From a virus, in IMG/VR virus record IMGVR_UViG_3300028197_000161, positions 1 through 23,958 of that record: DNA of 23,958 bases; one strand, given 5' to 3'. Below the pieces are notes generated by a model. It saw nothing but the letters and a program-made list of their open reading frames with translations. It searched no databases and was not told the DNA's origin. Positions 450-6,355 of this stretch are shown piece by piece (the first letter of the stretch is position 1; each line of letters begins with the position of its first letter). A program made the position numbers and the translations under genes.

Positions 450-469
450 TTTTTAGTCGCTTGCATCTA

Positions 470-925
470 ATGCCAGAGGAAGTCAAAAAGGAAGTATCCA
501 AAGAACCTAAAAAGAAAGGTATCCTTGGTAAAATAAAAGAGGCAGCAGATGATAAAGAAGAACAACTTGCTATTCTTTCTACCTTTGTGCGCCTTGGTAT
601 CCTTGTTTGGAGTGGTGGAATTCTCACTCTTGCATACATCAAACTACCTCCTGCTCTTGGAATTCCAGAACAGAAACTTGATCCTACCTTCATTGCCTCA
701 GTCTTCACAGGGGTCCTAGCTACCTTTGGTGTTCAGGCAGCAAAGAAAGCAGGAGAAAGTGGTGGTAGTAATGGTGGCAACACTGGGATCACTAAGGAGC
801 AGATGGAGAGATTGATTGAGAAGGCAGCACAGACTGCACCTAGTCAGACAATTAGAATTGAGCAAGCACCTGTGACTATTTCCACAGGAGAACCACCAGT
901 CAAATCAGCAGTAGAACCAAAGTAA
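470..925 (+). CDS. Two-helix membrane protein, possibly holin-like or virion-associated, 151 aa
   Basis: A charged N-terminus (Lys/Glu-rich, residues 2-32) is followed by two probable membrane helices (about 36-58 and 73-90), a Gly/Ser/Asn-rich linker near 95-104 and a soluble C-terminal tail. This resembles a small phage holin, but I see no motif that proves it, and a virion membrane-interacting role is equally possible. A TTG at 461 could extend it by three residues; the ATG is preferred. A late-type promoter directly upstream suggests late expression, which would fit either role. Confidence 0.75.
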   Translation: MPEEVKKEVSKEPKKKGILGKIKEAADDKEEQLAILSTFVRLGILVWSGGILTLAYIKLPPALGIPEQKLDPTFIASVFTGVLATFGVQAAKKAGESGGSNGGNTGITKEQMERLIEKAAQTAPSQTIRIEQAPVTISTGEPPVKSAVEPK

Positions 926-3327: not shown

Positions 3328-4128
3328 ATGGAAATTCCTGACATTAATATTAGATCTACACAAATCAATATAAGAGATATTTCTGTTCAGGAGATAAGGG
3401 ACTGGGCAACTACAATCCCACAAGCAATACCACCAGTACCACCTGTTGTAAATCAATTGGGCATACCCATTGTGGATATGCCTGGGTGTGTGGAGTCTCA
3501 TGAAACAAATAATCCTAACAATAGTGTAGTTATTGAAGATGACCCTAAGGGTTCTCTTACATATTGTGACGCAGGTGTGCCATCATTTAATCCAATTAAT
3601 TATACACCTGAGGAATTAGATTATACAGACCCAGCTAATCTTAAAAATCCATCATCACCTGATAAATCAGATACAGACACAGAAACAGGCACTCTACCTC
3701 CACCACCACCACCTCCTCCTCCTCCTACTGATTGTCCTAATTCAAAACAAAAATTAGAGCAACCCATTGGCACAATATTTGACAATGGTAGAGAAATGGT
3801 GGTAAAATATAAACTTGAGAATAGTATCTGTATTAGGGTTACAGAATCTATACCAATACCTGCTCAGATTGTGAATGCAATACCACCAGCAGGTATTATT
3901 ACAACCACAGCATCAATTGCACTAGTTGCTACTACATCTGCACTGATTGCTAAACCATTTGCTGACATCTTATTGAAAGTTGTTAAACCTACTATCAAGA
4001 AAGTGGTCAAAAAGATTGCCACTTTAAGAGGTAAGCAACCTAAGGTTCAAAGCAAAGGTCAACGCATGGCAGAACAAAGAGACAGAAATGAAGCAATTAA
4101 AGCTATAAGGAGAGTTCTTAAAAAATGA
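3328..4128 (+). CDS. Proline-rich cyanophage protein with one membrane helix, 266 aa
   Basis: Domain order: an N-terminal region with many Pro and Ile; an acidic middle (about 90-120); ten consecutive prolines (124-133), presumably a stiff linker; a small beta-rich segment with Cys136 and Cys168; a membrane helix (about 186-208); and a very basic C-terminal tail (about 215-266). The layout suggests a membrane- or envelope-spanning structural protein, possibly a minor virion protein; that is inference. It ends in an ATGA overlap with the oxygenase gene. Confidence 0.7.
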   Translation: MEIPDINIRSTQINIRDISVQEIRDWATTIPQAIPPVPPVVNQLGIPIVDMPGCVESHETNNPNNSVVIEDDPKGSLTYCDAGVPSFNPINYTPEELDYTDPANLKNPSSPDKSDTDTETGTLPPPPPPPPPPTDCPNSKQKLEQPIGTIFDNGREMVVKYKLENSICIRVTESIPIPAQIVNAIPPAGIITTTASIALVATTSALIAKPFADILLKVVKPTIKKVVKKIATLRGKQPKVQSKGQRMAEQRDRNEAIKAIRRVLKK

Positions 4129-4683: not shown

Positions 4684-5358
4684 TTACTCTTTAGGTATTT
4701 TATGAATATGTGGATGTTTGTGTCCTATAGGATTATTAACTACTACATCAGCACACACAGAATAGTATGGTGACTTAGGATGAAATTGAATTCCTTTTAT
4801 CTTTAACTCACCACAGTTCTTAAGTCTTGCAATTTCAAAATCTAATCTTTTATTAGCAGTTGCCTGTTGCATCAAAGCGATGTTAGCAGCAGCTGCTTCT
4901 TTGCATTGATCCTGTAGTTTTCTATCTAATGGTTTAGACCAAGTTGCTGAGAAACCTAGTGATAGATTGTAATTATCTTTCTGTCCAGTTCTTGTAGGAA
5001 CTTCATATAGAATGTCGCCAGGGAAGTCAGGTATGCCATCCCCTTTTGGGTTATTGTCATCATCAAAAGCACCTGAAATATCTACTCCATTATAAACTGG
5101 TTGCATGTAACTTGGTTCATATGGTTTCTGTGCGGATATAGAACCAGTTACGAAAGGTGTAAGATTAAGAGTGGGACCCTGACATTGGATTCCTGCTCCA
5201 TATGTGTTGGTGATGTAGGGTCCTTGTAAAACCTGGATAGCCTGGTTTGTAACAGAGCCAGAGGAATTAGCAACAGGAGCAGCAGTAGCAGATACGCCAC
5301 CAACAGTTTCAGCATAAGACTGAACAGGGAAGAGAGTAGATAGTATTACTGGGAGAAT
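4684..5358 (-). CDS. Secreted protein with conserved Cys, no canonical start codon, about 224 aa
   Basis: The frame begins with what looks like a signal peptide (KYILPVILSTLFPVQSYA before ETVGG). No ATG, GTG or TTG lies between that segment and a Met well inside the protein; the ATT at 5356-5358 is the best placed start, overlapping the upstream stop by 13 nt. An ATG at 5517 also opens this frame, but the extra N-terminus only re-reads the upstream gene. The mature part has a conserved-looking motif (NTYGAGIQCQGPTLNLTPF) and a C-terminal helix plus Cys segment (RLKNCGELKIKG ... YYSVCADVVV) that I associate with marine cyanobacterial and cyanophage secreted proteins. Third gene of a minus-strand operon. 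Confidence 0.65.
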   Translation of the reverse strand: MLPVILSTLFPVQSYAETVGGVSATAAPVANSSGSVTNQAIQVLQGPYITNTYGAGIQCQGPTLNLTPFVTGSISAQKPYEPSYMQPVYNGVDISGAFDDDNNPKGDGIPDFPGDILYEVPTRTGQKDNYNLSLGFSATWSKPLDRKLQDQCKEAAAANIALMQQATANKRLDFEIARLKNCGELKIKGIQFHPKSPYYSVCADVVVNNPIGHKHPHIHKIPKE

Positions 5359-5789
5359 ATACTTGTAGTTTCCGTGACGCTTGTTATATCTGTGGTTCTT
5401 TGAATGACAGTTTGATTTGCCAAACCTGGTCCTGAATAAGTTTCTGTGTAGATGAAAGACTGGCCAGGATTTACTATTGACCAACTTGGTTTCTGATTTA
5501 AATTTAATCCATTCCATGTAGAGCTCACCCCTTCTATTAATGTTGTTTCAGATGTGGCAGCAGGAGACAAAGATGTTCCATTTACCTGCACATTATTACC
5601 TGTTACTGTATATTCGTAACCTGTGTTGTAGTCAATTGAATTGATAACTTCAGTAACTTTACTAGTTGTCTCAGTCCTACTGGTCATTGACCCCTGAGTA
5701 AAGTTAGGGACAACAGGGACTGCCATGGCAGACAACCCCTGTAAACTAAGTAACAATCCAAGACTCAAACATTGTTGAATCTTGTTCAT
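5346..5789 (-). CDS. Secreted beta-rich protein, 147 aa (related to upstream gene)
   Basis: Residues 1-23 form a signal peptide (MNK start, Leu-rich core, SAMA before VPVV). The mature part is Thr/Ser/Gly/Asn-rich with alternating hydrophobics, as in beta-structured surface proteins. Two segments resemble the preceding gene: YTVTGNNV against YSVSGNNI, and GQSFIYTETYSG against GSAYSFSETFIEG, so the pair look like diverged duplicates. It starts 3 nt after the preceding gene and its stop overlaps the next. Probably exported to the periplasm or cell surface; role unknown. Confidence 0.75.
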   Translation of the reverse strand: MNKIQQCLSLGLLLSLQGLSAMAVPVVPNFTQGSMTSRTETTSKVTEVINSIDYNTGYEYTVTGNNVQVNGTSLSPAATSETTLIEGVSSTWNGLNLNQKPSWSIVNPGQSFIYTETYSGPGLANQTVIQRTTDITSVTETTSIFSQ

Positions 5790-5792
5790 ATC

Positions 5793-6287
5793 TTACCTTG
5801 AGATAGTTAACTCACTGACAAATTGTCCTGTAGCATTTGTACCAGCACCACCTGCAGTCAGTGTCATACCTCCTCCAGTGTTGATAGTACCTGCAAGAGA
5901 CCCTGCAAGACCACCAGTAAAAGTAGTAGAACTGCCATGAAGTTTAGGAGCAGCAAACTGTCCACCACTCAGAGCAGTCTGAGAAGAAGCAGTAGCATCA
6001 CCTTCAATAAAGGTCTCACTGAAACTGTAAGCACTACCTGCTGTTGTTAAACCATAGGCAGTAGGAGTATATCCAACAGCCTCACCGGCAGTCAGAGATC
6101 CTAGTGCTCCTCTTGCAGTAGGAGTAATGTTATTACCAGATACTGAATACGTGCTTCCAATTCTGCTAGTGGTTACTGCAGGACTGTCAACTGTTAATTG
6201 AATACTGGAGGATAATTTATGAATAATATCGGCATTTGCTGGTGCCGCCATCAAAGAAATTCCGAGAAGCAAAGTAAGCTTTCTCAT
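5793..6287 (-). CDS. Secreted Gly/Thr-rich protein, 164 aa
   Basis: First gene of the minus-strand secreted cluster. Signal peptide at residues 1-19 (MRK, Leu-rich core, ANA before DII). The mature protein is rich in Gly, Ala, Thr and Ser, with a Gly-rich end and no Cys, suggesting a beta-structured adhesin-like or matrix protein. It shares the YSVSGNNI and YSFSETF segments with the next gene. A CTAAATA motif reading leftward 22 nt before the ATG could be its late promoter. Confidence 0.78.
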   Translation of the reverse strand: MRKLTLLLGISLMAAPANADIIHKLSSSIQLTVDSPAVTTSRIGSTYSVSGNNITPTARGALGSLTAGEAVGYTPTAYGLTTAGSAYSFSETFIEGDATASSQTALSGGQFAAPKLHGSSTTFTGGLAGSLAGTINTGGGMTLTAGGAGTNATGQFVSELTISR

Positions 6288-6309
6288 TTGGAATTGAAGT
6301 ACACTGCGT

Positions 6310-6316: not shown

Positions 6317-6355
6317 TTTATCAAGTTTTTAAAATTTATATTAAGAGTATGTAAA

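Follow-up and report, generated by a model that had tools for sequence, protein, structure and literature searches.

In 20 Prochlorococcus and Synechococcus phages, Kongari et al. 2018 (PMC6139136) were unable to identify any spanin. They proposed either that disruption of the outer membrane is not needed, this membrane being perhaps just fragile, or that another protein substitutes. As candidate substitutes they considered an N-out/C-in inner-membrane protein with a C-terminal transmembrane helix (TM), in place of the i-spanin, or an outer-membrane protein. According to a holin paper, which cites others on this point, Myoviridae cyanophages are without the usual holin-endolysin system (PMC12843271). 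At least 13 phages of the spanin-less list carry the gene cassette described here, as judged by P1, P2 or P3: P-SSP7, P-HM1, P-HM2, P-RSM4, P-SSM2, P-SSM4, Syn1, S-RSM4, S-SM1, S-SSM5, S-SSM7, Syn19 and Syn9.

The window analysed is the whole stretch of a 23,958-base virus record, from which the rest of the genome is absent. By its content (psbA, psbD, talC, gnd, gp32, gp48/gp53 types) and its relatives it belongs to the Kyanoviridae (T4-like cyanophages). Three genes at 4684-6287, noticed in a sequence-only reading as a minus-strand island, are indeed the only minus-strand ones among the plausible genes from 1 to 22179. The relevant features are:

M154: 461-925, plus strand, two-TM protein with holin-like topology (Pfam DUF6450, phrog_2714, T4-GC218)
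P112: 2978-3316, plus strand, small one-TM protein (T4-GC414, phrog_568)
U266: 3328-4128, plus strand, rich in Pro, C-terminal TM at 190-208 followed by a tail rich in Lys/Arg; runs towards P3 (T4-GC234, phrog_570)
P3: 4684-5517, minus strand, 277 aa, predicted exported protein with four invariant Cys and a long helix (199-240) (T4-GC235, phrog_848/1755, 'gp165')
P2/P3 overlap: 5346-5517, minus strand, out-of-frame overlap (172 nt) of the P2 3' end and the P3 5' end, P3 ATG at 5517-5515
P2: 5346-5789, minus strand, 147 aa, predicted exported all-beta protein (T4-GC236, phrog_650, Pfam DUF6322)
P1: 5793-6287, minus strand, 164 aa, predicted exported Ser/Thr/Gly-rich protein (T4-GC237, phrog_564), labeled 'OMP1 protein' in some records
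Late-type promoter candidate: 6333-6340, minus strand, TATAAATT upstream of P1; NATAAATA is common upstream of P1 in relatives

The order is that of relatives in mirror image, and auxiliary genes separate M154 from P112. An inserted 2OG-Fe(II) oxygenase gene (PF13640, 4125-4682) lies between U266 and P3, whereas these two are immediate neighbours in most relatives.

Comparison with described systems

The cassette proteins are members of T4-GC 234-237, PHROG 564, 570, 650 and 848, DUF6322 and DUF6450, all entries without a function. Profile matches to the T4-GC and PHROG families are full-length (E 9e-42 to 2e-129) and the gene order agrees. Searches of Pfam, NCBIfam and PHROG placed no cassette member in a family with a known function, and none matched a known lysis family in the profile searches. 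Publications on DUF6322, on OMP1 and on spanins of cyanophages assign no function to these proteins, and those searched contain no description of the unit or of its occurrence in two phage families. The system is functionally undescribed, as had been suspected; its families are catalogue entries only.

Like the cassette proteins, two-component spanins (Rz/Rz1) are small products of late phage genes that go to the envelope of Gram-negative hosts. Overlapping out-of-frame genes occur in both (P2/P3; often Rz/Rz1), the podoviral cassette occupies, like Rz/Rz1, that end of the structural region where holin and Rz lie, and an outer-membrane step is presumed. However, we found no sequence similarity between the cassette and two-component spanins, and the cassette has neither a lipoprotein o-spanin nor a coiled-coil i-spanin with N-terminal TM. 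Instead of the Rz/Rz1 pair there are three proteins with cleavable signals and the N-out/C-in, Pro-rich U266. A lipobox-like motif was detected in 0/68 P1, 3/167 P2 and 8/170 P3 sequences and in none of the window proteins; therefore, these are not canonical spanins. An i-spanin is a type II inner-membrane protein with an N-terminal TM, whereas the single TM of U266 lies at 190-208 of 266 residues and its basic tail is C-terminal. The unimolecular spanin of the T1 gp11 type resembles U266 in its C-terminal TM and long predicted periplasmic part, but U266 lacks both the N-terminal lipobox and a signal peptide, and it is accompanied by P1-P3.

Export signals, overlapping genes and promoter candidate

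Signal peptides were called by hydropathy and an AxA motif. P1 and P2 start with classic Sec signal peptides (..MAAPANA/D and ..LSAMA/VP, respectively). In P3 the hydrophobic core is located at residues ~53-69, preceded by a 50-residue basic stretch, and this late position results from the start codon inside P2. The P3 signal peptide of the MPP-C podovirus P-SCSP2 is short and ordinary, and export of P3 is therefore well supported. The P-SSP7 record carries SignalP/TMHMM predictions for the equivalents of P2, M154 and U266. Taken together, these sequence features provide good support for three exported proteins, and each of the signal peptides proposed earlier is present. P1 and P2 are paralogues (hhalign probability 95%, E 2e-8).

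The ATG at 5517 is the sole usable start for the P3 signal peptide; it is closely preceded by the Shine-Dalgarno-like GGGGTGAG, and the first ~57 P3 codons overprint the end of P2. In 69/70 distinct P2 genes, all of them myoviral and outside the T7-like set, a P3-frame ATG occurs 165 or 171 nt upstream of the P2 stop; a divergent marine single-cell virus (L091) is the one exception. The P2 codon in front of the conserved Trp is TCA, ACA, CAA, AAA or AGA (Ser, Thr, Gln, Lys, Arg), with A as third base in all. The overprinted P3 frame is open in 69/69 genes, compared to ~8% by synonymous resampling and 3.6% for ATG plus open frame; the sequences are related, so these counts are not independent trials. 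Most relatives (36/50, loose pattern) have a GGAGTG-like Shine-Dalgarno sequence before the P3 ATG. An artefact of frame or gene calling as the origin of the N-terminal extension of P3 is ruled out by the ATG conservation and the open-frame statistics. Judged by this conservation, the start of P3 within P2 is real.

Of 58 distinct relatives, 22 have ATAAATA in the 60 nt preceding P1, versus 1.6 (maximum 7) in mononucleotide shuffles. This enrichment, along with TATAAATT at 6340-6333, supports the idea that the island has a late-type promoter of its own.

Membrane partners

The N-terminal 185 residues of U266 contain 26 acidic and 12 basic residues and 30 Pro, while 18 basic and 4 acidic residues make up the charges of the tail after the TM; an N-out/C-in topology is predicted. 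The TM helices of M154 comprise residues 36-54 and 76-94, and the P-SSP7 record gives two TM by TMHMM for the equivalent protein. M154 has the size and topology of a class II holin (small, two TM helices); its profile matches are DUF6450 and PHROGs of unknown function, and none is to a known holin family. Only in myoviruses does P112 run co-linearly with U266 and M154, and it is at most a tentative member of the cassette.

A conserved module in two phage families

In a tblastn search of 50,697 phage records P3 was found in 434, P2 in 412 and P1 in 351, and the records with P1-P3 are those of cyanophages or uncultured marine viruses. Eighty IMG/VR loci show a constant order of P1-P2-P3 and a converging U266, followed by P112 and M154 on the U266 strand. 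The convergence of P1-P2-P3 on U266, with M154/P112, was seen in 64 complete myoviral loci, and order and convergence hold in each complete Kyanoviridae locus examined. In the numbering of Sullivan et al. 2010, P1, P2, P3 and U266 are T4-GC 237, 236, 235 and 234, while P112 is 414 and M154 is 218. Homologues of the three exported proteins are thus co-conserved rather than occurring singly, and the signal peptides persist in the relatives.

In T7-like cyanopodoviruses the cassette is flanked by the tail fibre gene and the small terminase (TerS) gene. P2 and P3 homologues are present in P-SSP7, P-SSP3, SS120-1, S-RIP2 and others, with a U266-like gene and M154 just upstream, and the order U266-M154-P2-P3 was found in 76 podoviral loci. 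In P-SCSP2 (MPP-C) and P-RSP2 the block M154-P2-P3 runs opposite to its neighbours and the U266-like gene converges on P3 in the manner of the myoviruses. Comparison of myoviral and podoviral profiles gave hhalign probabilities of 99.8 for M154, 99.8 for P2, 99.9 for P3 and 94.8 for U266, whose podoviral counterpart (phrog_9426) matches over the last ~54 aa. Given these cross-family matches and the conserved linkage, unrelated phages of one host group share one module. It combines exported and membrane proteins, includes an overprinted gene pair, and is conserved across two phage families; U266 and M154 belong to the same unit as P1-P3.

Among 84,980 species genomes scanned, the matches are mostly phage contigs. 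Formosa, Lewinella, Nonlabens, euryarchaeal and similar bins were considered as cellular carriers, but since the whole cassette is present, most of these matches seem to come from phage contigs that were binned with, or co-cultured with, the named organism. One flavobacterial isolate assembly (a 188-kb Nonlabens xiamenensis contig, L179) carries the full cassette, which suggests the genome of a co-cultured cyanophage.

A slot shared with endolysin-type genes

Full-length P3 is missing from 12 cassette-less genomes: it is absent from Syn5, P60, S-CBP42, S-TIP28, S-CREM2, S-B68, S-H34, MA01, S-CRM01, S-CBS2 and S-CRES3, and the sole match in S-N03 is weak, partial and within a 366-aa frame. The podoviral slot is occupied by the endolysin gp37 and gp38 in P60, by a lysozyme and a gp38 homologue in S-CBP42, and by the TM-coiled-coil protein gp47 in Syn5. 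P60 gp38 and Syn5 gp47 are homologous (86-87 aa, N-terminal TM, coiled coil). The interval between tail fibre and TerS is the region of holin 17.5 in T7. The myoviral slot reads nrdAB-GC846-M154-P112-..-U266 in Syn1; in S-B68 and S-CREM2, a C39/GH19 endolysin, which S-CREM2 encodes as two genes, and a lysozyme with signal peptide come after nrdAB-GC846. S-N03, MA01 and S-H34 contain a block of GC846 homologue, endolysin and lysozyme, and nrdAB is not directly upstream in the stretch read. A gp47 homologue lies near the slot in S-B68, S-H34, MA01 and S-N03, most of these cluster C myoviruses. In the slots of Syn5 and S-TIP28 no endolysin was seen.

These cyanophage sets (P60 gp37-gp38; S-CBP42 lysozyme with gp47-like protein; S-B68 endolysin, lysozyme and gp47-like protein) occupy the slot of the cassette in both families. 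In contrast to the cassette, they have recognisable peptidoglycan hydrolases and neither P1-P3 nor U266. Conversely, neither a GH19 endolysin nor a gp47-like protein was found in 11 cassette genomes, where the gp47 search had no positive control of its own, the family being found elsewhere. In the genomes tested, with a handful of cassette-less ones as a limited sample, the cassette shares its slot with endolysin-type lysis genes and excludes them. As the slot is used for lysis genes in cassette-less relatives, the description of P1-P3 as non-lysis proteins in the sequence-only reading is probably wrong. Cluster C phages retain a weak M154 homologue outside the slot, which would suit a holin needed by both systems, though this is a faint hint.

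A hydrophobic or amphipathic protein of ~55 aa adjoins the cassette or gp47 (Syn5 gp48, L092 16666-16836; in podoviral relatives L086 6978-7139 and L087 near 6020-6202) and could be a further component of the lysis slot.

A putative role in egress

We tentatively propose a cyanophage-specific egress (lysis) cassette in which P1-P3 form the exported half and U266 and M154 the membrane half; this may well be correct, though we do not regard it as established. An egress role, especially for the outer membrane, is the best reading; in its favour are the linkage in two families, the podoviral slot, the slot swap and exclusion, the spanin-less carriers, the late-type promoter and the out-of-frame exported pair. 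Counted against lysis are the chromosomal relatives described below, which fit a non-lytic envelope role, the near-absence of lipoboxes, the lack of matches to known lysis families, structure models that are poor or resemble nothing known, the weak M154 homologue of cluster C phages outside the slot, the small number of cassette-less genomes, the slots of Syn5 and S-TIP28, in which no endolysin was seen, and the slot near nrdAB, which may be a mere hotspot.

We infer lysis function, complex formation, localisation, disulfide bonds and order of action as follows. After late transcription, the two-TM M154 would act as a holin-like timer and permeabiliser of the inner membrane. U266 would reside in this membrane with its long Pro-rich N-terminal part in the periplasm and its basic tail in the cytosol. 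The beta-rich P1 and P2 and the presumably disulfide-bonded P3 with its long helix would be exported by Sec and presumably assemble with one another, either in the periplasm or at the outer membrane. Together with U266 the resulting complex might breach the wall and outer membrane, replacing the spanins. More broadly, a spanin-free, multi-protein exported apparatus (U266-M154-P1/P2-P3) with cellular cousins could rupture the cyanobacterial envelope in two unrelated families and replace endolysin-type cassettes in a shared slot, a generalisation that we consider possible but rather doubtful. If it is true, this apparatus represents a new class of phage egress machine. The cassette provides concrete candidate genes for outer-membrane breakage by the commonest marine cyanophages and, if it is an egress machine, would control how phages are released in much of the cyanobacterial mortality of the ocean.

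Chromosomal relatives and a possible non-lytic envelope assembly

A clear chromosomal context was found only for three freshwater picocyanobacterial MAGs (L184-L186) and a divergent set of P3 copies. In the three MAGs P1-P2-P3 lie beside ndhI, ndhG, ndhE and NAD kinase (the ndh genes checked in L184 and, for ndhI, in L186), and L184 and L185 also have a convergent U266-like gene. The contigs of all three end near the cassette. Among 400 genomes of the same picocyanobacterial family 15 contain P3, seven of these copies being divergent (E 1e-15 to 4e-5). In 3/7 divergent copies the P3-like gene is found amid 3-5 other exported Ser/Thr-rich proteins, some of which are weakly P2- or P1-like. The 3.4-kb loci of the seven copies contain no match to M154 or U266. 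In the P3 tree the chromosomal copies form their own branches outside any phage clade.

These relatives favour the main alternative to lysis, in which P1-P3 form an outer-membrane or surface structure that alters the infected cell, for example by superinfection exclusion or receptor masking, on a membrane base of U266/M154; phages would have taken the genes from cyanobacteria or given them. The strongest point for it is the divergent P3-like genes among exported Ser/Thr-rich proteins with no M154 or U266 match; the ndh-linked copies, the slight similarity of some chromosomal neighbours to P2 or P1 and the separate branches in the P3 tree also agree with it. However, the endolysin slot swap and the late-type promoter fit exclusion poorly, because exclusion is expected to act early. 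Moreover, the linkage of M154 and U266 in phages would be left unexplained. The cellular clusters are devoid of a match to either, except for the ndh-linked copies. We therefore regard such an assembly as somewhat unlikely. An exported assembly on the host cell had been suggested from the sequence alone; the chromosomal clusters of exported relatives help this suggestion, but it ranks below lysis. If it is correct, phages carry, in the cassette, a widespread surface system that has relatives in cells.

The exported Ser/Thr-rich clusters with a P3-like gene are located at 3275-7926 of L215, 2208-6429 of L216 and 6094-10370 of L221. Many of their Ser/Thr-rich proteins end in an aromatic motif, e.g. 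SVF or SAF. A Cys-rich 'SFDVYC' secreted protein is present in L215 and L221, the latter encoding also another large secreted protein. In L218 (4985-6959) a chromosomal P3-like gene is apparently split by a transposase-like ORF (5270-6304).

Passenger genes, structure models and virions

P1-P3 might also be a passenger or hotspot block that serves the infected cell in some unrelated metabolic or stress role, as do the neighbouring psbA, petE and gnd. The region is rich in auxiliary metabolic genes, and Sullivan et al. 2010 report a hotspot near psbA. Auxiliary genes, however, come and go, while the order of the cassette is kept in hundreds of genomes of two families, which makes this explanation improbable.

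The AlphaFold2 model of P2 (pLDDT 75) is all-beta with two strands of 23-24 residues; that of P3 (pLDDT 56) is poor except for the long helix, too poor to compare folds. Neither model supports any claim made here. A Foldseek search of the PDB with P2 gave nothing significant (the top match, a phage tail protein, has E 9e-3, and TM-scores are low throughout), and only cyanophage relatives matched in BFVD. The insignificant PDB matches are rich in beta-pore stems and phage collars, and none is a significant fold match that would identify P2 as the stem of a beta-pore-forming toxin. For an outer-membrane beta-barrel or TolC-like P3 there is a Pfam OEP match at E 0.04, from one chromosomal P3 only.

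Virion-associated or assembly proteins, added to particles or aiding tail or fibre maturation via the periplasm, would suit the podoviral copies among late structural genes beside the tail fibre and the collar and tail proteins among the best, insignificant PDB matches, but Sec signal peptides are unusual in parts of tailed-phage virions, and this alternative is very improbable. The earlier idea of packaging with the virion is likewise unsupported: the S-SM1 record gives GC234-237 no structural label, although the virion was analysed by MS (PMC3037559), and the Syn9 record gives none for P1-P3. Two MS-detected virion hypotheticals of S-CREM2 that resemble P1 and P3 in size, ORF174 (146 aa) and ORF176 (236 aa), are unrelated to P1-P3, and S-CREM2 is without the cassette. 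The virion proteins of S-CREM2 (L225) listed in Table 3 of PMC10665884 include a phage-encoded 'CRISPR-Cas9 nuclease' and a SAM hydrolase.
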